A stretch of DNA of 64,000 bases, from the NCBI RefSeq assembly GCF_945605565.1, contig NZ_OX216966.1:4332001-4396000 (forward strand), in the 5' to 3' direction. The stretch is from Paenibacillus dendritiformis. Lineage in GTDB: Bacteria; Bacillota; Bacilli; Paenibacillales; Paenibacillaceae. This document shows, piece by piece, positions 49,520 to 58,747 of this stretch. The notes under the pieces were generated by a model, which searched no databases, was not told the DNA's origin, and worked only from the letters and a program-made list of their open reading frames with translations. Within the stretch, counting starts at the first letter, position 1. Every line of letters starts with the position of its first letter. The translations under genes and the position numbers were made by a program.

Positions 49520-50431
49520 TTAATCGGTTCCATTCGTGAAGCCATGCAGATTTCTGCGAATAATCGATATAAATTCGGTAACGTAAGCTTCGGATTTTTC
49601 GTGTTTACGCGTACATAAAGCAATTGTATTGACGGGAAGCAGCTCGTCCACATGCACTTGTGCCAGCTCTCCCCGCTCGACATACTCCCTGGCTACCAGA
49701 GAAGAGATGAAGCTGGCTCCATACCCGGAAGCGACTGCATGTATCGTCTCGTTCAGTCCGCTAAATTGGAGCGCGACTTGGGGAGGGCTTACCATGTACG
49801 TCTTGCATAGAGAGAATAGCCGCTCCCGAACCGCGCTTCCTTCCTCCCTCATAATAAAAGGCTCCGTCATCATTTGACGAAAGGTGATATGCCGATTCGC
49901 ATACTTGTGGTCAGGAGCGACGACGAACCATACTTCATCCTGATACAGCTCCTCCCGATGCACTTCCTCGGAATGACTATCGGGCTCCCCTCCGCATACC
50001 GCGATATCCGCCGCATAATGGATGAGCTGCTCCAGCGCCTCCTGCGAGTTCGCCGTTGTAATCAACACTTCAATTTCCGGATGATTGCTTTTGAATTGGG
50101 CGGCCCATCTGGGAATGAGGTAGCTCGTTGCCAGATAGGTTCCGACGATACGCAATCTCCCGCTGCGATGATTTCGATAATCATCCACAATCGCTTCGAT
50201 TTGCTCTTCCAGCGCAAAAAGCCGCTTTGTCGGATTCATTATTTTTTGTCCAATGGCTGTAAGCGCGACTCCCCTTCCTTTCGGTTCGAACAAAGATACA
50301 CCCAATTCCTTCTCGAATTTCTTGATCTGGGCCGTGATGGCCGGCTGGCTAATATTCAGCTTCTCCGCCGCTTTCGTAACGCTGCCTGTCAAGGCAACGG
50401 TATAACATATTTTGAGGGCATGCAAATTCAT
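49520..50431 (-). CDS. LysR-family transcriptional regulator
   Basis: A 303-residue LysR protein. HTH: YTVALTGSVTKAAEKLNISQ followed by PAITAQIKKFEKELGVSLFE. The effector domain includes YLATSYLIPRWAAQFKSNHP and a C-terminal SSLVAREYVERGELAQVHVD, close to CysL/YwfK-like regulators. It is encoded with the downstream exporter gene (24-base gap), which it probably controls. The 60 bases upstream are very AT-rich and hold the promoters shared with the divergent phosphatase gene. Confidence 0.9.
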   Translation of the reverse strand: MNLHALKICYTVALTGSVTKAAEKLNISQPAITAQIKKFEKELGVSLFEPKGRGVALTAIGQKIMNPTKRLFALEEQIEAIVDDYRNHRSGRLRIVGTYLATSYLIPRWAAQFKSNHPEIEVLITTANSQEALEQLIHYAADIAVCGGEPDSHSEEVHREELYQDEVWFVVAPDHKYANRHITFRQMMTEPFIMREEGSAVRERLFSLCKTYMVSPPQVALQFSGLNETIHAVASGYGASFISSLVAREYVERGELAQVHVDELLPVNTIALCTRKHEKSEAYVTEFISIIRRNLHGFTNGTD

Positions 50432-50548
50432 ACCAGGCGCTCCTATTATATATTTTCATTATAAGTATCGTTCAAAATATATTATTATTCTATATTTTTC
50501 AATAGTATACTCGAGACGATAATGGAAGTAAATATGGAGGGCTGCACC

Positions 50549-51166
50549 TTGGCAAAAACGACTTTATACTTGACGAGACATGGACAGACGGAATGGAATG
50601 TGGAAGAGAGAATGCAGGGTCACAAAGACTCGCCTCTTACAAGCTTGGGCGTGCTTCAAGCGGAATGGCTGCAGCAAAGATTAGAGCCGGTGCCGTTGGA
50701 TGCGGTCTACTCAAGCTCCAGTCTGCGGGCATGGAGAACGGCCCGGATCGTAACGGGCAATAAGCAGGTCAGCATCAGGCCGATGGATGAATTAATGGAA
50801 ATCAATATGGGGCTGTGGGAAGGGCAGCATATCGAATTTATCGAGAATCAGTTTGCGCAGCAGTATTTTCATTTTTTCAACAGCCCGGATTTGTATCAGC
50901 CAACAGGCATAGGAGAAACTTATGAGCAATTGATAAGCAGGGTGATCCCCGCTATCGACAGCATCATCTCCAGACACCAGGGCAAGACGGTGCTGATTGT
51001 GACTCATCGCATTACCCTGAAGACCATTATGGGCTACTATGGAAATACAAAATTGCATGAGCTTGGAAGCTTGCCGGATATCCAATCGACCAGCCTCAGC
51101 AAAATATCGATAGAGGACCATGTTCCCATGATTGAAATGTACGGGGATACATCTCATTATCAATAG
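50549..51166 (+). CDS. Histidine-phosphatase (phosphoglycerate-mutase-like) protein
   Basis: A 205-residue protein of the branch-1 histidine phosphatase superfamily: LYLTRHGQTEWN at residues 6-17 with the phospho-His, AVYSSSSLRAWRTARIV near residue 58, ELMEINMGLWEGQ near residue 82, and the second catalytic His in VLIVTHRITLKTIMG near residue 150. The substrate could be a phosphorylated sugar, alpha-ribazole-phosphate or an unrelated ester. TTG at 50549 with GGAGGG 7 bases upstream is preferred; the ATG at 50522 has no site. The last 105 bases are duplicated at 53593. Confidence 0.87.
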   Translation: MAKTTLYLTRHGQTEWNVEERMQGHKDSPLTSLGVLQAEWLQQRLEPVPLDAVYSSSSLRAWRTARIVTGNKQVSIRPMDELMEINMGLWEGQHIEFIENQFAQQYFHFFNSPDLYQPTGIGETYEQLISRVIPAIDSIISRHQGKTVLIVTHRITLKTIMGYYGNTKLHELGSLPDIQSTSLSKISIEDHVPMIEMYGDTSHYQ

Positions 51167-51290
51167 GGAGTGCGGAATTCTCCCTTTGCCGTGGGGAGCG
51201 CACAAGGCTGCAGGGTAAAACGAACAATGGACAATATTGAAGCGGGGAAAAGCGGATGATGATGGAGGAAGCCATGAAATCCTGCGTAAA

Positions 51291-51767
51291 TCAGGCTGTT
51301 GGAAAACCCCTGTTTTTCGGAGGGTGAGTACCTAATCGAAACTTGGCATTCAGAGCGTCATCGCCTTCTGGAGACATCCTAATCTCCTGGGGTTTTAACG
51401 TGTGGAGGGAATTGCTGCTATTTTACAGGATTTTCGGCTCAATGAGTCCACATTTCGAGGAATTGCTGCACGGCTACATCATTTTAGGCCCTTTTTAGCT
51501 AAGTCGAGGAGAAACGGGTGAAATTGCTGCAGTTTTACAGGATTCCCTTTCTGGTGAAGTCGTCCCTACCGAATTGCTGTATTTGTGCAGGATTTTGCCT
51601 ACTGAATCAACGTGTCTTGCGAAACCGTGCAGTTTTGAGGACTTCGCCTATCGGATAGACATTTCATTGTGCAGTTTTCAGGCAATTCGATCAGATAAAA
51701 TTTTTCTACTGAGAGACAGGTCCTGATGAAGTGCCCAAAAATCCTTTGGACTTTCTCAACAGCCTGA
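51291..51767. mobile_element. MITE-like element with periodic hairpin units
   Basis: Terminal inverted repeats: TCAGGCTGTTGGAAAA at the left and, reading inward from the right, TCAGGCTGTTGAGAAA (14 of 16 identical). They resemble, from memory, ends of IS1182-type elements. Inside there is no ORF but a series of degenerate units GAATTGCTGC-N-TTTTACAGGATT at CTGC positions 51414, 51465, 51526, 51576, 51626 and 51669, spaced 51, 61, 50, 50 and 43 bases. Each unit can form a small CTGCA/TGCAG hairpin. No clear target-site duplication was seen. Confidence 0.6.
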
Positions 51768-51819
51768 AAAATGCATCATTTTCTGCTATTTTTGTTTTTT
51801 CTCTGTAAGCATGGCTGAA

Positions 51820-51893
51820 ATTGATGCCGTTTTGCAGCAATTCTTGTAACGGACTTAACATCATATAGAAAAACTGCATATTTGCAGTTTTTC
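51820..51893. repeat. Inverted copies of the GAATTGCTGC unit and an 11-bp hairpin
   Basis: Just outside the element, 51822-51843 reads as GAATTGCTGCAAAACGGC on the minus strand, the same unit inverted. GAAAAACTGCA at 51868-51878 pairs perfectly with TGCAGTTTTTC at 51883-51893. Confidence 0.6.
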
Positions 51894-51989
51894 TGCAAGT
51901 CGCGCATTGAGACGCAAGGGGACTGTCGCTCACTGCAGCTAAAACTACGCATGAGATAGCCCTGCTTGCGTCTGGTTGCCGATTTTAGC

Positions 51990-52234
51990 TCCGATATGAA
52001 TCTTCTTGGCTTTGTTCCACCGCCTCTTTAATTCGAGAGCGAGCAGCATATGCGCATCCGACCCTCGACAGATCTGACGTACACATTACTTCCGATCAAT
52101 TGCATAGTTCTCTGTGGCATTCTATCCGCTGTTCTCTAGGAAAGCTTACGCAATGCTGCAGGAAGTAGACGCTTCTATCCAATTTTGGACACACTTCTCC
52201 CGTGTTGTGCAGCATCAAAGAAAACAGCAGTGGA
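51990..52234 (-). pseudogene. Degenerate copy of the GNAT 5' end and the peptide gene
   Basis: The segment aligns with 54530-54944. Its left part matches the start region of the GNAT-RidA gene, with an internal deletion between two TTCGAG repeats. Its right part matches the last two thirds of the 45-codon peptide gene at 54850, for example CCAATTTTGGACACACTTCT identically on the plus strand. Frameshifts destroy both reading frames. Homology ends at 52234, 13 bases before the MFS stop codon. Confidence 0.8.
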
Positions 52235-52246
52235 CACAGGGTTATT

Positions 52247-53428
52247 TTAACCCTCAAATATTTTTCGTCTATCATAAGCAAAGAAAATCATTACAACACC
52301 TAAAAGAGCGCAAACTGTATACATTTGAGAATAGGACGTAAAATCTGCGACTGGTCCCATTACTGCACCGCCTAAAGTAATACCTAAATCAGCCATGGCA
52401 ATAAATAAACCGAGTAACACATTACGATTTGCATTTGGTAAAACAAATGTCAAATAGGTTGTTAATGTAGGATACAATAACGCCTGAGCTATCCCCATTA
52501 AGATAGCTCCTATGTATAAAAAGATGGCCCCACCTGTTAACGAATAGCTAACCATTCCAGCTGCGACTGTTAAAATAGACATAATCCCCATTACAAATTT
52601 GGGGTGCCACTTACCATCGGAAGGAATTCTCTTTCTCAGCGTAAACCTTGCCAAAACAATTGTACCTGCTTGAAGCATTAAGTAAATACCAGCATTGCCA
52701 CTCGTTAGTTCATTAGCATACAGAGGGATAAACGTTGCTATTGCACCAAACACTGTAGATGCTGTTAACATTAGTACACTGCATTTAAATAAAAATGGGT
52801 TTGTCACCAAATAACTAAAGGATTTAAATACATTAGTATCAGTTTCAGCTTCTGTCTCAATTTTAGCTTCATTATTATCTTTTATTTTAATACTATAACC
52901 AAAAACCCCTGTCATCACAGCTATACCAATCATAGCAATTGTAAAGTAATTCATACCCCCGCTTTCCCATATCCCTAATGCAAGAATAGGTCCAATAATA
53001 CCAGGCATATAAGTGAACAAGGAATACAAGGATACACCTTGTGAGCGCTCCTTCTCTGGTAACGCATCAATAATGCCAATCTGTAATGCCATCGAGAAAA
53101 AGGCCGTAGAGACCCCTTGAAATATACGCGCTACAAAAAAGCCACCTAATCCTGATACTGTATAAGTAATCAAGGCTAGACCATTAAATAAAAGTATGAC
53201 ACGCAAAACCCTTATCGGTCCGTATTTATGAATAATTTGACCTGCCCATGGTCTGAAAAACATAGTCGTAAACATATAGGCGCCCATGATTAATCCAATT
53301 GCCGTATTGTTAGCACCCAAAGTTTTTCCATGCAAAGGTATGATGACATTCAATATGGAATTAGCACTAAAAAAAAGAAATGCCAACATATATAAACGCA
53401 TAAAAGACCAAGACATTGCTATATTCAA
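52247..53428 (-). CDS. MFS transporter, AT-rich, probably acquired
   Basis: A 393-residue, twelve-helix major-facilitator protein. The loop 2-3 motif is seen as RPWAGQIIHKYGPIRVLRVI, the helix-5 region as ALQIGIIDALPEKERSQGVS with LFTYMPGIIGPILALGIWE, and loop 8-9 as RKRIPSDGKWHPK. It resembles YwoG/staphylopine-export-like or multidrug-type MFS proteins; the substrate is unknown. Codons are strongly AT-rich against neighbours. The TTG at 53428 has AGGGGG 7 bases upstream. It is framed by a ruined copy of the GNAT/peptide region downstream and a copied peptide promoter upstream, which implies insertion into a duplicate. Confidence 0.87.
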   Translation of the reverse strand: MNIAMSWSFMRLYMLAFLFFSANSILNVIIPLHGKTLGANNTAIGLIMGAYMFTTMFFRPWAGQIIHKYGPIRVLRVILLFNGLALITYTVSGLGGFFVARIFQGVSTAFFSMALQIGIIDALPEKERSQGVSLYSLFTYMPGIIGPILALGIWESGGMNYFTIAMIGIAVMTGVFGYSIKIKDNNEAKIETEAETDTNVFKSFSYLVTNPFLFKCSVLMLTASTVFGAIATFIPLYANELTSGNAGIYLMLQAGTIVLARFTLRKRIPSDGKWHPKFVMGIMSILTVAAGMVSYSLTGGAIFLYIGAILMGIAQALLYPTLTTYLTFVLPNANRNVLLGLFIAMADLGITLGGAVMGPVADFTSYSQMYTVCALLGVVMIFFAYDRRKIFEG

Positions 53429-53531
53429 GTTATTACCCCCTGGTTTGAAATCCTTTAAGGATGGCAACTTTCATTAAAGCAACTGCCTTCATTTATTACT
53501 TCACAAAAACTCTTCTAATATAATTACTTCA

Positions 53532-53560
53532 AGACTACTTTGAAAAATATACAATTGCAA
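53532..53560 (-). promoter_or_regulatory. Promoter copy upstream of the MFS gene
   Basis: Minus strand TTGCAA (53560..53555), 17 bases, TAGTCT (53537..53532). The surrounding 35 bases match the peptide-gene promoter at 55091-55119 almost base for base (TACTTTGAAAAATATACAAT on the plus strand). Confidence 0.65.
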
Positions 53561-53592
53561 GCTCCGTCCAGGATGATTAATCAGTCTCATCA

Positions 53593-53697
53593 CTTGGAAG
53601 CTTGCCGGATATCCAACCGACCAGCCTCAGCAAAATATCGATCGAGGACCATGTTCCAATGGTTCAAATGTACGGGGATACATCTCATTATCAATAG
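53593..53697 (+). pseudogene. Duplicated 3' end of the histidine-phosphatase gene
   Basis: This 105-base segment matches 51062-51166 with only a few changes and keeps the frame: LGSLPDIQPTSLSKISIEDH, then VPMVQMYGDTSHYQ and TAG. It lacks any upstream coding part, so it is a fragment left by duplication. Confidence 0.88.
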
Positions 53698-53725
53698 GGA
53701 GAACAGGTCTTGCCGGCGATATAAA

Positions 53726-53752
53726 ACCGCCCCGCTTCCAAGGAGGGGCGGT
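53726..53752 (-). terminator. Rho-independent terminator after the GNAT-RidA gene
   Basis: ACCGCCCC/GGGGCGGT stem with an 11-base loop, then TTTTATAT on the minus strand. Confidence 0.82.
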
Positions 53753-53786
53753 AATATTTATTATGTTAACTGGTACAACGATTTGG

Positions 53787-54737
53787 TTACCATCTGGCGG
53801 CCCATGCTTCGATTTCGACTTTGAGAGAAGGAAGCGCCAGAGCCGGCACATAGGACATCGTCATCGAAGGAGCGGTCCCCCCATGGAACTTCTCCCATAC
53901 TTCATTGAAGTAGTTCCAATCCATTTCTTCCGTGGCCAAAATATTGATTTTGATAATATTATCGGCACATACCGATTCCCCTTCCAAAATGCGCAGAATA
54001 TTTTGCAGCGTATTATACAGCTGCTCGTTCATATCCGAGGGCATGTCTCCGTTCATGTCGGTTCCGACTTGTCCGGACAGAACTAACAACTCCGCCCCTC
54101 TTGGGACAACGGTAAGATGTGTATAAGGGCCGACGGGAGAGGCAACCGTATTCGGATTGCTGCGTTGAACCTTTTTGGCCTCTTTCCCTTCCTTAGCATC
54201 GTCGTCGTTTACGATGGCTAATGTCTGATGATCTTCCCAATAGCCGTTAATTTTTACGTTCTTCTTGGCGATGCCTTCTTTATGGAACCCGGCCTTGAGC
54301 AGCACTTTGATGGAACCCGTGTTATGCGGCATGACTCCCGCTTCGATGCGATGAAAATCCAGTTCGTCAAAAGCATACCGAACAACAAGCTTAACCGCTT
54401 CGGTCATATAGCCTTTCCCATTGTGTTCCTGATCCAGAAAGTAGCCAATCCAACAGCTTTGCAGGTTGTATCTGACGACTTCGGTCAACATAATCTCGCC
54501 AATAATCTGGCCAGAATCCGGCAAGCAAATGACAAAGAAATATGCTCTGTCTTCTTTGCTTTGCTCTATCGCCTCTTTAATTCGAGCCGCCTGCCCCTGG
54601 AGCGTATAGAAAGACGCTTCCCGCAACCCTGTGAACGGTTGAAAGAAATCCCTGTTCTTTACTTCGAGAGCGAGCAGCATATCCGCATCCGACTCCTCGA
54701 CTGGTCTGACGTACACATTACTTCCGATCAATTGCAT
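53787..54737 (-). CDS. GNAT acetyltransferase-RidA fusion protein
   Basis: A 316-residue two-domain protein. Residues 5-178 are a RimJ/RimL-type GNAT: VYVRPVEESDADMLLALEVK, IIGEIMLTEVVRYNLQSCWI, the acetyl-CoA loop DQEHNGKGYMTEAVKLVVRY, and GVMPHNTGSIKVLLKAGFHK. A charged linker (DDDAKEGKEAKKV) leads to a RidA/YjgF domain at about residues 195-316: SPVGPYTHLTVVPRGAELLV, LSGQVGTDMNG, and SMTMSYVPALALPSLKVEIE at the end. RidA members remove reactive enamines, but the usual Arg near the C-terminus is replaced in this sequence. AAGGAG is 9 bases before the ATG at 54737. Confidence 0.85.
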   Translation of the reverse strand: MQLIGSNVYVRPVEESDADMLLALEVKNRDFFQPFTGLREASFYTLQGQAARIKEAIEQSKEDRAYFFVICLPDSGQIIGEIMLTEVVRYNLQSCWIGYFLDQEHNGKGYMTEAVKLVVRYAFDELDFHRIEAGVMPHNTGSIKVLLKAGFHKEGIAKKNVKINGYWEDHQTLAIVNDDDAKEGKEAKKVQRSNPNTVASPVGPYTHLTVVPRGAELLVLSGQVGTDMNGDMPSDMNEQLYNTLQNILRILEGESVCADNIIKINILATEEMDWNYFNEVWEKFHGGTAPSMTMSYVPALALPSLKVEIEAWAARW

Positions 54738-54770
54738 AGTTCTCTTCTCCTTTGGCAAAAAATTAAAAAA

Positions 54771-54791
54771 CGCCACAGGAACCCTGTGGCG
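54771..54791 (-). terminator. Strong terminator of the small-peptide gene
   Basis: CGCCACAGG/CCTGTGGCG with a 3-base loop, followed on the minus strand by TTTTTTAATTTTTT. A second hairpin with the same CCACAGG/CCTGTGG arms lies at 54811-54831, between the peptide stop and this one. Confidence 0.88.
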
Positions 54792-54849
54792 CTTATCACA
54801 AGCTATGTAACCACAGGAAAGCGGCCTGTGGCATTCAATCCGCTGTCTT

Positions 54850-54987
54850 CTAGGAACGCAATGCTGCAGGAATAGCCGCTTCTATCCAATTTTGGACACA
54901 CTTCTCCCGTGATTGTGCAGCATCAAAGAAAACAGCAGTGGAGTACCCGGTACCTGCAGACAAAGACTTCAAAGCTCTCTTCTTCAT
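54850..54987 (-). CDS. 45-residue peptide, unknown, with its own transcription unit
   Basis: AGGAGGAG, 7 bases and ATG at 54987 begin MKKRALKSLSAGTGYSTAVF, continuing FDAAQSREKCVQNWIEAAIP and AALRS to TAG. The first nine residues are basic and the middle is Gly/Ser/Thr-rich; there is one Cys at residue 30 and an amphipathic C-terminal helix. That leader-plus-core look could suit a modified, secreted or signalling peptide, but I know no match. A promoter with 17-base spacing lies about 100 bases upstream and a strong terminator follows, so it is a complete unit. A ruined second copy lies at 52106-52234, beside the MFS gene. Confidence 0.65.
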   Translation of the reverse strand: MKKRALKSLSAGTGYSTAVFFDAAQSREKCVQNWIEAAIPAALRS

Positions 54988-55090
54988 ACGAATACTCCTC
55001 CTTTCGCTATTTCCTCGTTATAAGCGCAAATGATGGTACCATTCCAATTTCTAACACACATTCTTCACGAACCAATATATACTTATTTCA

Positions 55091-55119
55091 ATACTACTTT
55101 GAAAAATAAACAATTGCAA
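55091..55119 (-). promoter_or_regulatory. Promoter of the small-peptide gene
   Basis: Minus strand TTGCAA (55119..55114), 17-base spacer, TAGTAT (55096..55091), predicting a leader of about 95 bases. The same sequence is conserved at 53532-53560 before the MFS gene, which supports its importance. Confidence 0.65.
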
Positions 55120-55171
55120 GCTCCTTCCATGATAATGGATACGTTTCATATACGAGAGCGCTAATAAAAAA

Positions 55172-55214
55172 AACGAGGCGCAGCAGCGATTTCAACATCG
55201 CCCTGCCCCTCGTT
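55172..55214 (-). terminator. Rho-independent terminator after tyrS
   Basis: AACGAGG/CCTCGTT outer stem with an inner GCGAT/ATCGC arm and eight T on the minus strand. Confidence 0.88.
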
Positions 55215-55242
55215 TTGCTTGCCTTTCATTTCGTCCTTACAC

Positions 55243-56505
55243 CTACACCAATTTCACCAAATGATATTTCTTCTTTCCTTTGCGAATAATGATGAAGCGG
55301 CCTTCAATCGCGTCCTCGGCGCCGACGACGAATTCCAGATCGCTCACCCGCTCGCCGTTCAGGGAAATGGCGCCATTTGTAATATCCTCGCGCGCCTGGC
55401 GCTTCGACGGCTCAATGCCTGTATCGACGAGCCACTCCACGATATTCTTGGATTCCGCGGAAGCTTCAAACGTCGGCATTTCCTTGAAGCCTTGCTCAAT
55501 TTCATCCGCAGTCAATGACCGGATATCGCCGCTGAACAGCGCGGCCGTAATTCGTTTCGCCTGCGCCAGCATTTCTTCGCCGTGAACGAATCTCGTCATT
55601 TCTTCGGCGAGCGTAATTTGCGCTTCGCGCTTATGCGGCTCGGTGCGCACTTTCTCGGCCAGCGCTTCAATCGCTTCTTTATCGAGGAAAGTGAAGTATT
55701 TCAAATATTTCACGACATCGCGATCATCGGTGTTCGCCCAGAACTGGTAGAACTCATACGGCGTCGTCTTCTTCGGATCGAGCCAGATCGCGCCGCCGGC
55801 CGTTTTGCCGAACTTCGTGCCGTCCGCTTTCAGCATCAGCGGAATCGTCAGGCCGAACGCCTTGGCCTCAGGGCCTTCCTTTTTGCGGATCAAGTCCAGG
55901 CCGCTCGTAATATTCCCCCACTGATCGGAACCGCCGATTTGCAACTGCACGCCCTCTTCCCGGTACAGATGCAGGAAGTCCATCGATTGCAGGATCTGGT
56001 AGGAGAATTCAGTGTAGGAGATCCCGCTCTCCAGGCGGCTTGACACAATATCTTTGGCCAGCATCGTATTAATGCTGAAATTTTTCCCGTAGTCGCGCAA
56101 AAAGTCAATCACATTCAACTGATGCGTCCAGTCATAATTGTTCACCATGCGCAGCTGATTGTCTCCGTCGGTCAGGAACAGCTTTTTCATCTGCGCGGTC
56201 AGCGCATCCACATTCGCCTGCACCTGCTCCATCGTCTGCAGCGACCGCTCGGATTGCCGTCCGCTCGGGTCGCCGATCGTTCCGGTCGCGCCGCCGATCA
56301 GAATGACGGGCTTGTGCCCGGCCAACTGGAATCGCTTGAGCATCATGAACGGAATGAGATGCCCGATATGCATGCTGTCTCCGGTCGGATCCACCCCGCA
56401 GTACAACGAAATCGACTGCTCTTCCACCAGCTTGCGCAGCCCTTCGGCATCCGTCTGTTGATTAATCGCCTCGCGCCATTCCAATTCATCAATAATATTC
56501 AACAT
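55243..56505 (-). CDS. tyrS: Tyrosyl-tRNA synthetase
   Basis: A 420-residue class I synthetase that charges tRNA-Tyr. HIGH motif as MHIGHLIPFMML near residue 45, tyrosine pocket LYCGVDPTGDSMHIGH and QIGGSDQWGNITSGLDLIRK near residue 190, and the KMSKS-equivalent KFGKT (ADGTKFGKTAGGAIWL) near residue 232. A C-terminal S4-like RNA-binding domain starts around residue 350 (PSKRQAREDITNGAISLNGE). It is controlled by the T-box leader upstream: uncharged tRNA-Tyr should allow read-through. The start codon is ATG. Confidence 0.97.
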   Translation of the reverse strand: MLNIIDELEWREAINQQTDAEGLRKLVEEQSISLYCGVDPTGDSMHIGHLIPFMMLKRFQLAGHKPVILIGGATGTIGDPSGRQSERSLQTMEQVQANVDALTAQMKKLFLTDGDNQLRMVNNYDWTHQLNVIDFLRDYGKNFSINTMLAKDIVSSRLESGISYTEFSYQILQSMDFLHLYREEGVQLQIGGSDQWGNITSGLDLIRKKEGPEAKAFGLTIPLMLKADGTKFGKTAGGAIWLDPKKTTPYEFYQFWANTDDRDVVKYLKYFTFLDKEAIEALAEKVRTEPHKREAQITLAEEMTRFVHGEEMLAQAKRITAALFSGDIRSLTADEIEQGFKEMPTFEASAESKNIVEWLVDTGIEPSKRQAREDITNGAISLNGERVSDLEFVVGAEDAIEGRFIIIRKGKKKYHLVKLV

Positions 56506-56570
56506 TCTCAGCTCCCTGCCCTGTTCTTTGTCTTATAAGCCTGAATATACGCGAATCCGTGAAAATAAAA

Positions 56571-56830
56571 AATCGCCCCTGATCTGCACCAGATCCAGGG
56601 ACGATTGAATAACCGCGTTACCACCCAACTTGTACAATGACCGGAACAACCGGATCATCATACCGCTCTCAGCCCGTTATCGTGAGCTATCCCGCTCGGC
56701 ATTACCCAAGATACTCCAGAGTGTAATTCGCAAGGAAACAGTATGCTGCCAGGTCCCATCAACCCCTGGCTTTCTGTGAACAGTGACTGCCTGCTACTGC
56801 GCTCTTTCAACGTATATTCCGTATAAGATT
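56571..56830 (-). promoter_or_regulatory. T-box leader (tyrosine) of tyrS
   Basis: The minus strand carries the invariant T-box sequence GGGTGGTAACGCGG at 56626..56613. It is followed by a terminator hairpin at 56606..56571 (AATCGTCCCTGGATCT arm and complement, then TTTTTT). The upstream 200 bases fold as stem I and others; a TAC triplet within GCGAATTACACTC at 56725..56723 is the likely specifier for tyrosine. Read-through occurs when uncharged tRNA-Tyr pairs with the T-box bulge. Confidence 0.93.
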
Positions 56831-56837
56831 ACAAGCC

Positions 56838-56866
56838 ATTATAGTGAATTATGAACCGGTTGTCAA
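56838..56866 (-). promoter_or_regulatory. Consensus sigma-A promoter of tyrS
   Basis: Minus strand TTGACA (56866..56861), 17 bases, TATAAT (56843..56838), a perfect match. Transcription should start near 56830, the 5' end of the T-box. Confidence 0.92.
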
Positions 56867-56932
56867 ATAGTTGGCAGCCAAATTATGACCTGCAATGAGC
56901 CGCTCTCCCCTTTACAAAACATTTATATTGAA

Positions 56933-56971
56933 TTTACGTCCCGATTACACATTCTTGCCATTCCTTTAACA
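56933..56971 (+). promoter_or_regulatory. Pho box: four PhoP repeats at 11-bp spacing
   Basis: TTTACG (56933), ATTACA (56944), TTGCCA (56955) and TTAACA (56966) start exactly 11 bases apart, the arrangement bound by Bacillus PhoP. CATAAT at 56981-56986 can serve as the -10, placing the last repeat near -35 as in PhoP-activated promoters. Confidence 0.82.
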
Positions 56972-57025
56972 ATTCTCTTCCATAATGAAGGAGGTTAAGT
57001 ACATATTTGGTTGGAGGGATACCAA

Positions 57026-58747
57026 TTGAAATTATTCGTACGGAAATCACTGGTTGCTGCGCTGGCGCTGCTGATGCTTCCATTTGGCGCATGGCAATCC
57101 GACAAGGTACTGGCCGCGGGAGCAGGGAAGCGGCAGCCGGAATCCAAAAACATTATTGTGCTCATCGGCGATGGCATGGGACCCGCGCAAGTATCCGCAG
57201 CACGGATTTACTCCAAAAATAAGCTAAAGAAGCCGGCCCTGAACCTGGACAGCATGTACGTCGGTCAAGCTACGACCTTTGCTGACAAAGGCGAGGACGG
57301 AGATACAATCGTGTCCGGAGAAGTTACGGATTCTGCATCAGCGGGAACGGCCTTCGCGACCGGTCATAAAACTTACAACGCTGCCATCAGCGTCTCGAAC
57401 GAGGATATCTCCAAGCCATTCGCTTCCGTGATTGAAGCTTCCAAAGCCGCCGGCAAGTCGACTGGACTTGTGACGACAGCACGCATTACGCATGCTACTC
57501 CGGCCGTGTACGCCGCGCATGTCCGCAATCGCGACAATGAAAATGCGATCGCCTCTCAATATTTGGAGTCCGGCGTTGATGTACTGTTAGGCGGCGGCAA
57601 GCGCCATTTCGTCAGCAAGAAGGAGAAAGGCAAGCGTGACGGCAAGACGATCATTCCCGATTTTGAGAAAAAAGGCTATAAAGTCGTATACGATAAAAAA
57701 GGCTTGGCAGCGTTAACGTCCAACAATCAAAAAATTCTCGGCTTGTTCCATGATTCTCACGTCGATTATGTGCTGGATCGCAAGCCGGAGACCCCGAGTC
57801 TTGCCGACATGACGGCTAAGGCGCTCGAATCTCTGTCCTCGAATCCGAATGGGTTCACCATGATGGTCGAAGGCGGACGAATCGACCATGCCGCCCACGC
57901 GAACGATTTCGGCGCCATGATCGAGGAGACGCTCGATTTCGACGCCGCCGTGAAGGTGGCGCTTGACTTCGCGAAGAAGGACGGCAACACATCCGTTGTC
58001 ATTACAGCCGACCATGAGACGGGCGGCCTCTCGCTTGCCCGCGACAATATTTACGAGTTGAACGTAGCCGCATGGGACGCACAAAAAATCTCTTCCGAGC
58101 TGCTCGCGCCACAGCTTGCGCAGGCAACGTCCACAGCGGAAATCAAGGAGCTAATCAAGAAACATACCGGATTTACAGATATTACGGAAGAAGAGGCGCA
58201 CTATATTATGGAGGGAGACGGCACCTCATATAAGCAGGAAGGCGCCTTCAATCAAGTGATGGCCAAACGCTACTTGATCGGCTGGTCCGGACATGGCCAC
58301 TCGGCCGTCGACGTCGGCGTGTGGGCTTACGGTCCGATCGTGCAGCATGTCCAAGGCCAGATTGACAATACAGCAATCGCAACCAGCATTGCGCACGTCG
58401 CCGGACTGGATCTGGCACTAGCAACAACCAATCTGCAAAGCAAGCACCTGTACCCGAAATTTAAAGTAAACGATGACGGCACCGTACTATTCCCTGCCGT
58501 CAAGCTCGCACAAGCGCTGCAAATCAAAGTCACGGACAACAAAGATGCGAAGGTTACCACATTTACGAAAGGCAACGTGACATTGAAAGTACAGGGCGGC
58601 AGCAAAGTGACCGTGAACGGCAAAGCCAGCACCCTTCCGGCCGAGCTCGATGGCAATATCCTCTATCTCAATCTGGAAGCGTTCAGCCAATTGACAGGCC
58701 AAGCTTTGAAGTGGGATGCCTTGTCCGAACGCATCATACTGAAATAA
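57026..58747 (+). CDS. Secreted alkaline phosphatase with C-terminal copper-amine-oxidase-like domain
   Basis: A 573-residue exported enzyme. Signal peptide at residues 1-26 (LFVRKSLVAALALLMLPFGA, cleaved after VLAA). The phosphatase domain has the metal-binding IIVLIGDGMGPAQVSAARIY near residue 40, the nucleophile Ser in GEVTDSASAGTAFATGHKTY near residue 100, and GGRIDHAAHANDF and ITADHETGGLSLAR with the zinc and magnesium ligands. The last 85 residues (VKLAQALQIKVTDNKDAKVT to the end) match the copper-amine-oxidase N-terminal-type domain common in Paenibacillus secreted proteins. TTG at 57026 has GGAGGG 8 bases upstream. It releases phosphate under phosphate starvation. Confidence 0.93.
   Translation: MKLFVRKSLVAALALLMLPFGAWQSDKVLAAGAGKRQPESKNIIVLIGDGMGPAQVSAARIYSKNKLKKPALNLDSMYVGQATTFADKGEDGDTIVSGEVTDSASAGTAFATGHKTYNAAISVSNEDISKPFASVIEASKAAGKSTGLVTTARITHATPAVYAAHVRNRDNENAIASQYLESGVDVLLGGGKRHFVSKKEKGKRDGKTIIPDFEKKGYKVVYDKKGLAALTSNNQKILGLFHDSHVDYVLDRKPETPSLADMTAKALESLSSNPNGFTMMVEGGRIDHAAHANDFGAMIEETLDFDAAVKVALDFAKKDGNTSVVITADHETGGLSLARDNIYELNVAAWDAQKISSELLAPQLAQATSTAEIKELIKKHTGFTDITEEEAHYIMEGDGTSYKQEGAFNQVMAKRYLIGWSGHGHSAVDVGVWAYGPIVQHVQGQIDNTAIATSIAHVAGLDLALATTNLQSKHLYPKFKVNDDGTVLFPAVKLAQALQIKVTDNKDAKVTTFTKGNVTLKVQGGSKVTVNGKASTLPAELDGNILYLNLEAFSQLTGQALKWDALSERIILK

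Follow-up and report, generated by a model that had tools for sequence, protein, structure and literature searches.

The 64,000-nucleotide stretch of Paenibacillus dendritiformis DNA analyzed here (the window; contig NZ_OX216966.1, positions 4,332,001 to 4,396,000) contains, at 54987-54850 on the minus strand, an ATG-initiated open reading frame (ORF) of 45 amino acids, flanked by tyrS on one side and by a gene for a 316-residue fusion of a GNAT acetyltransferase to a Rid (YjgF) domain on the other. A first-pass annotation of the window had singled it out as an overlooked small gene, and the gene is real, being conserved and under purifying selection. We propose that its first 21 codons form a leader encoding a cis-acting, probably ribosome-arresting regulatory peptide that controls Rid or GNAT-Rid genes, and we put the probability of this reading at about 0.7. 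As read from sequence, the 21-codon core is under strong amino-acid constraint, is directly followed by conserved RNA, and holds a fixed place before Rid or GNAT(-Rid) genes; from these features we infer arrest, an inducer, switching and the direction of the effect on the target.

A leader peptide conserved across Bacilli

The leader consensus, MKK[RK].L..[LI]S.G.GYSTAVFF (21 residues), recurs in Bacilli, usually with a stop codon directly after FF. The 45-residue form, when compared with 5.8 billion proteins, returned four proteins at E up to 10. The homologue search that the annotation had proposed for Paenibacillus gave a match at E <= 0.01 in 17 of 19 same-genus genomes (the window's own included), many of the matches spanning only about residues 1-25 to 1-32, and relatives outside the window's branch, read by frame, stop after residue 21. 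Thus the 45-residue unit as annotated stands for its first 21 codons, but codons 22-45 are a clade-specific read-through, and the frameshifts among close relatives that had been named as evidence against the gene occur in the C-terminal half only. The single Cys and the amphipathic end, which had been thought meaningful, both lie in that read-through. A modified, secreted or signalling peptide had been suggested from these features, and the length and P..L ending give an apparent likeness to AgrD-like peptides; we rejected these ideas because relatives stop after residue 21, the C-terminal half is unconserved and no common neighbour was seen behind Rid at 225 loci viewed by eye.

A DNA pattern for GYSTAVFF was found in 125 of 394 genomes of the family, compared with 1/394 for a reversed control pattern, and in 108 of 392 genomes of an order-level sample, part of which is shared with that of the family. 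A relaxed pattern followed by a TAA or TAG stop was present in 5 of the 398 genomes of a phylum sample, all of them Bacilli; the 382 genomes listed as sharing no more than the phylum gave no hit. Scanning named genomes gave at least 119 stretches; the genera among the 80 matches listed include Paenibacillus, Brevibacillus, Bacillus, Lysinibacillus, Sporosarcina, Virgibacillus, Vagococcus and Tetragenococcus, and Clostridium tunisiense is also among them. The same list holds records titled Roseburia and one Akkermansia metagenome-assembled genome, titles that we give as deposited and that may be mislabelled.

Pattern searches of this kind fix the peptide in advance, so a blind test was begun from the Rid protein instead. 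It yielded 42 Rid matches in 41 of 250 Bacilli genomes, and a leader stood upstream of 31 of them (27 of the 30 best, 4 of the 12 others) by a loose peptide rule that strongly diverged leaders could escape. Over the last eight residues of these 31 leaders the sole changes were Y15F (three times) and V19I (once), with the Ser, Thr, Ala and Val before FF as constant as FF itself. The selection check that the annotation had called for, performed on the 23 distinct leaders, gave a ratio of amino-acid-changing to silent differences (pN/pS) of 0.119 over codons 12-21 and 0.427 over codons 2-11, in codons where RNA pairing too restricts silent changes; near the proposed arrest site it is the amino-acid sequence, and not the codons alone, that is constrained. 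In a redundant set of 256 leaders pooled from several searches, the stop codon directly follows residue 21 in 235 (TAG 180, TAA 54, TGA 1), although about half of the loci were chosen by a stop-favouring pattern, the 119 named loci having been picked with TRR. This preference is as expected if termination by release factor 1 (RF1) is important.

A diverged leader, MKKRSIKSLGIGYGFSIAIFF, precedes a GNAT-Rid gene on a 102-kb plasmid of Macrococcoides bohemicum (NZ_CP079985.1, L276). It ends GYGFSIAIFF and then a stop, its substitutions (F, I, I) are conservative, and an RNA core-like stretch is present. Two further records are of less certain origin: Klebsiella grimontii plasmid CP079755.1 (L277), a Gram-negative record, has a leader like those of Bacilli together with a Rid gene, by transfer or mixed assembly, and a 14-kb IMG/VR contig classed as viral (L274) shows a leader and then, by eye, an apparent Rid start.

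Target genes

The leader is a short ORF with its own ribosome binding site at a fixed position upstream of one kind of target gene. A same-strand Rid gene lies within 1.7 kb behind 250 of the 256 leaders; of the remaining six, two are cut short (L062, L111), one has a broken GNAT gene and no Rid match (L008), and three have GNAT without Rid (L079, L086, L108). The leader-linked Rid proteins belong to one clade of the Rid family, in which the position of the deaminase arginine (Arg105 of E. coli TdcF) is Met in 173/173 aligned Rid domains, and with that catalytic arginine absent throughout, the target does not qualify as a RidA-type imine deaminase. According to Niehaus et al. (PMC4433059), this arginine is needed for imine hydrolysis and the function of Rid subfamilies that do not carry it is stated as unknown. 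Rid4-Rid7, as described there, resemble the leader-linked clade in having no such arginine but differ at the position itself, which is Trp in Rid4 and Rid7 and variable in Rid5 and Rid6. Since its Rid domain has no imine-deaminase arginine, the GNAT/Rid pair probably confers protection from some compound through a different chemistry.

Downstream of Rid, a same-strand ORF of at least 90 amino acids starts within 200 nucleotides (nt) at 67 of 225 loci; these ORFs are of many kinds, and no conserved operon partner was seen by eye among the 225. One of them, in Shouchella xiaoxiensis (L136), resembles chloramphenicol acetyltransferase by eye.

A conserved RNA core behind the leader

Behind the stop codon follows a conserved core of approximately ACGGGWGAAGUSUGYCC, which we analyzed in 79 stop-ended representative loci less than 85% identical to each other. 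Its nine-base anchor scored at least 7 in 75 of the 79 and 9 in 44, compared with 28 of 200 shuffles reaching 7 or 8 and none reaching 9. The anchor begins 20-23 nt from the stop (once 11 nt), with the distances spread over the three frames as 37, 24 and 14 of 75, and because it is not fixed in frame the conserved core is RNA and not protein. The arms flanking the core vary between species but fit each other within each, with a native pairing energy of -4.37 kcal/mol compared with -2.04 kcal/mol when arms were permuted; the best of 2000 permutations reached -2.72 kcal/mol, and the native arms beat the median swap in 58/75. The core thus sits in a predicted hairpin with covarying arms. The last 18 nt of the leader are also predicted to pair with a downstream element, the energy falling below the shuffle mean in 77/79 representatives (mean z -1.77) and the native mean of -11.61 kcal/mol comparing with -10.44 kcal/mol for swapped partners (0 of 2000 permutations as good). 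Divided by Ala codon, native and swapped values are -13.68 and -9.59 kcal/mol for GCC (9 representatives), -11.41 and -10.62 for GCT (66), and -13.1 and -9.42 for GCA (1).

Rfam covariance models at E up to 1 gave no match near the leader in 50000-57500 of the window, where only the T-box before tyrS was found, and seven relatives were likewise without a match. Two loci that keep leader and Rid (L090, L092) show no evident anchor. Vagococcus vulneris (L131) likewise keeps leader and Rid, with a long hairpin in place of the core.

Two forms of the locus

The features of the window's locus are as follows, all on the minus strand.

55074..55103: weak sigma-70-like promoter match (TTCAAA, spacer 18, TATATT; 9/12 positions)
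54995..55004: leader ribosome binding site, AAAGGAGGAG, by sequence
54925..54987: conserved leader core, codons 1-21, MKKRALKSLSAGTGYSTAVFF, supported by relatives and by the low pN/pS of codons 12-21
54850..54924: clade-specific ORF extension, codons 22-45 and stop, not conserved as protein; its C-terminus shifts frame among close relatives
54894..54910: conserved RNA core, here ACGGGAGAAGUGUGUCC, inside the extended ORF; placed by eye
54839..54846: downstream element ACAGCGGA, proposed partner of the last leader codons (duplex -17.6 kcal/mol)
54811..54831: upstream hairpin, segments 1 and 2 (CCACAGG ... CCTGTGG); segment 2 can pair with segment 3 instead
54768..54794: intrinsic terminator, segments 3 and 4, a 12-pair stem and then a T run, shortly ahead of the GNAT-Rid gene
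53787..54737: target gene for the 316-residue fusion of GNAT acetyltransferase and Rid (YjgF) domain, by Pfam, open frame and relatives
52001..52234: duplication scar with pieces of the GNAT gene and the 3' part of the leader

The 45-codon ORF is preceded on its 5' side by AAAGGAGG, and the ribosome binding site that had been annotated is indeed there. A promoter with 17-base spacing had also been described; a match is present, but its spacer is of 18 and it is weak, and the leader promoter is only weakly supported because a scan of the region found 8 such sites with 3.3 expected from shuffling. The stretch holding the ACAGCGGA element has a duplex z of -3.41 relative to shuffles. The strong 12-pair stem taken for the gene's dedicated terminator is present, but it stands just before GNAT-Rid.

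Across the Bacilli we distinguish two forms. In type A the stop follows FF, the Rid start lies a median of 95 nt behind it in the redundant set (83 nt in the representatives), and no intrinsic terminator was detected in any of the 79 representatives, scanned over the first 95 nt. In type B, the window's form (24 loci examined), FF is followed by GAT, GAA or another sense codon, and the ORF runs to 35-49 codons in 23 loci and 63 in one; the window's ORF has 45 codons because the stop was lost in its branch. An intrinsic terminator lies between leader and GNAT in 22/24 type B loci (exceptions L062 and L266), GNAT is next in 23/24 (L062 has no sequence there, and the GNAT of L008 is broken), and GNAT and Rid form a single open frame in 19/24. 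In one genome (G271) both forms occur, L085 of type A preceding Rid and L086 of type B preceding GNAT without Rid, which suggests that two genes under shared control were joined in the fusion.

The type B segments CCACAGG, CCTGTGG, CCACAGG and CCTGTGG can pair either as 1:2 and 3:4 (the terminator) or as 2:3 (an antiterminator). With a model ribosome on the leader, the probability of 2:3 was at least 0.98 in all 14 analysable type B loci (20 tried). We conclude that an attenuator layout is present in type B, with no clean switch in the equilibrium folding models. Because a hairpin follows, we also considered that a programmed frameshift at UUUUUUC might yield a longer product. This was discarded, since the distance from stop to core keeps to no single frame, all three being represented, and since the site reads UUUCUUU in the window's clade.

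Weighing the readings

A classical amino-acid attenuator, in which the ribosome stalls at the FF (or Y) codons when charged tRNA for Phe or Tyr runs short and the RNA then switches, would account for the two Phe codons at the end of the leader and for the attenuator-like terminator of type B. Classical attenuator leaders, however, keep the number of their control codons and not their whole sequence, whereas here the four residues before FF do not vary more than FF does, and the targets are not amino-acid biosynthesis genes; we consider this explanation unlikely. Slightly less likely again is a riboswitch-like element of RNA only, with the small ORF incidental or merely melting the RNA. The conserved core and covarying arms do lie outside the coding region, but the peptide is itself under selection (as its low pN/pS indicates), its replacements are conservative only (Y15F and V19I, and F, I, I on the plasmid), and leader and Rid are retained where the anchor is not evident (L090, L092) or where a different long hairpin occupies the position of the core (L131). 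A free functional peptide, whether a signal, a bacteriocin-like product or a small regulatory protein, would suit a nearly invariant 21-residue product that is basic at its start and hydrophobic at its end. It is nevertheless very improbable, given the tight linkage to one target family (250/256), the pairing of its codons with the mRNA, the lack of a common partner behind Rid at the 225 loci viewed by eye, and the absence of any family in Pfam or NCBIfam that it matches beyond the cut-off.

Several results weigh against the arrest-peptide reading that we prefer. In the blind test 11 of the 42 Rid matches, mostly the more distant ones, have no recognisable leader. For the Ala codon GCG (3 representatives), native leader-end pairing at -9.23 kcal/mol is barely better than swapped pairing at -9.04 kcal/mol. 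RNAalifold, given 68 of the 79 representatives aligned with MAFFT, returned no consensus pair, perhaps due to misaligned arms, and this counts against a simple consensus structure. The antiterminator is favoured even without a ribosome in 9 of the 14 analysable type B loci by equilibrium folding. In type A the Rid start is unpaired with a probability of 0.459 in free RNA, 0.520 with a ribosome at the leader end and 0.562 with a ribosome at the leader start; the opening is therefore not specific to a ribosome at the leader end, and a type A mechanism based on a masked Rid start is not supported. Finally, type B, having lost the stop codon, shows that the ribosome need not be at a stop to arrest.

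A proposal for leader-mediated control

Based on these analyses we can outline how a ribosome-arresting leader might work. Under some signal, the ribosome would arrest once the nascent chain ending in GYSTAVFF is complete and lies in the exit tunnel, with the stop codon TAG or TAA in the A site or, in the window's clade, an Asp or Glu codon. The arrested ribosome would cover the last leader codons and free the downstream element otherwise paired with them. In the terminator-free type A, freeing this element would make the Rid mRNA better translated or more stable, and in type B the helix chain would shift from terminator (3:4) to antiterminator (2:3), letting transcription enter GNAT-Rid. The signal is plausibly a small molecule acting at the ribosome, and such a compound would fit a GNAT/Rid protection module. 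More tentatively, with confidence a little short of even, we suggest that the near-invariant arrest peptide GYSTAVFF and the RNA core make up an undescribed two-part sensor, found in Bacilli as far apart as Paenibacillus, Bacillus and Vagococcus and on a Macrococcoides plasmid, that switches on GNAT/Rid protection against a ribosome-acting compound or metabolite, and that in one lineage the loss of the stop and the gain of a terminator made a transcription attenuator out of the terminator-free form.

No description of the leader was found in the literature searched, where the sole match to STAVFF was a Giardia paper. Among known systems, the antibiotic-sensing Erm leaders of Gram-positive resistance genes also combine an upstream open reading frame (uORF) with alternative RNA helices, and the GNAT family also holds resistance enzymes. 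The vmlR leader likewise has a uORF and alternative helices and combines transcription and translation attenuation (PMC9226507). Compared with vmlR and Erm, the target here is Rid or GNAT-Rid, one peptide is used across many genera, and a conserved RNA core follows. The tryptophanase leader TnaC (PMC8429421) is likewise short, with a conserved sequence that is probably recognised within the ribosome. Arrest at the stop codon is the parallel that we propose with TnaC; the two differ in having no sequence likeness by eye and in their targets and hosts.

Leader peptides usually drift fast, and the near-identity of this one in many genera suggests that ribosome and nascent chain recognise a specific signal directly. 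The leader offers a handle on the Rid clade without the deaminase arginine and on why GNAT is fused to Rid, and it could become a new model of nascent-chain sensing.

Duplication and an inserted exporter gene beside the locus

The first-pass annotation had described a ruined paralogue of the small gene and, from a nearby major facilitator superfamily (MFS) gene, a peptide-exporter link. The mutated partial copy exists (52112-52234, 90% identity over 124 nt), as does the duplicated leader promoter region next to the MFS gene (53518-53590, 84% over 73 nt). However, the first is a duplication scar and not a second gene: the region between the end of the phosphatase gene and the leader promoter is repeated in four stretches inside 51062-52234 and in one at 53518-53590, so that fragments of the phosphatase and acetyltransferase genes were duplicated as well. 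The MFS gene itself (52247-53467, minus strand) stands behind its copy of the leader promoter region without a leader.

Its protein matches the model of the CntE metallophore exporter (staphylopine family) with 663 bits (cut-off 235), its G+C is 0.369 compared with 0.511 for the window, and the block holding it has no match in the compared regions of three relatives (G015, G007, G008). In G015 (L270) the phosphatase region runs straight into the Rid-GNAT-leader-tyrS block with 52235-53519 unmatched, and two more loci (L271, L273) show the same gap; in G018 (L272) an MFS homologue, 96.5% identical over 1033 nt, lies between leader and tyrS. The gene is a putative CntE-type exporter gene in an inserted block, and because the block has no counterpart in the compared regions of these three relatives, the protein matches CntE and the G+C is low, the link between MFS gene and peptide is best read as a rearrangement and the peptide-exporter idea falls away.

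Two minor observations concern the surroundings. Within the inserted block, 51404-51847 contains a GAATTGCTGC-bearing unit, about 26-31 nt long, in several imperfect copies. Before tyrS, at 56594-56819 on the minus strand, lies a T-box leader (Rfam RF00230, 94.5 bits).
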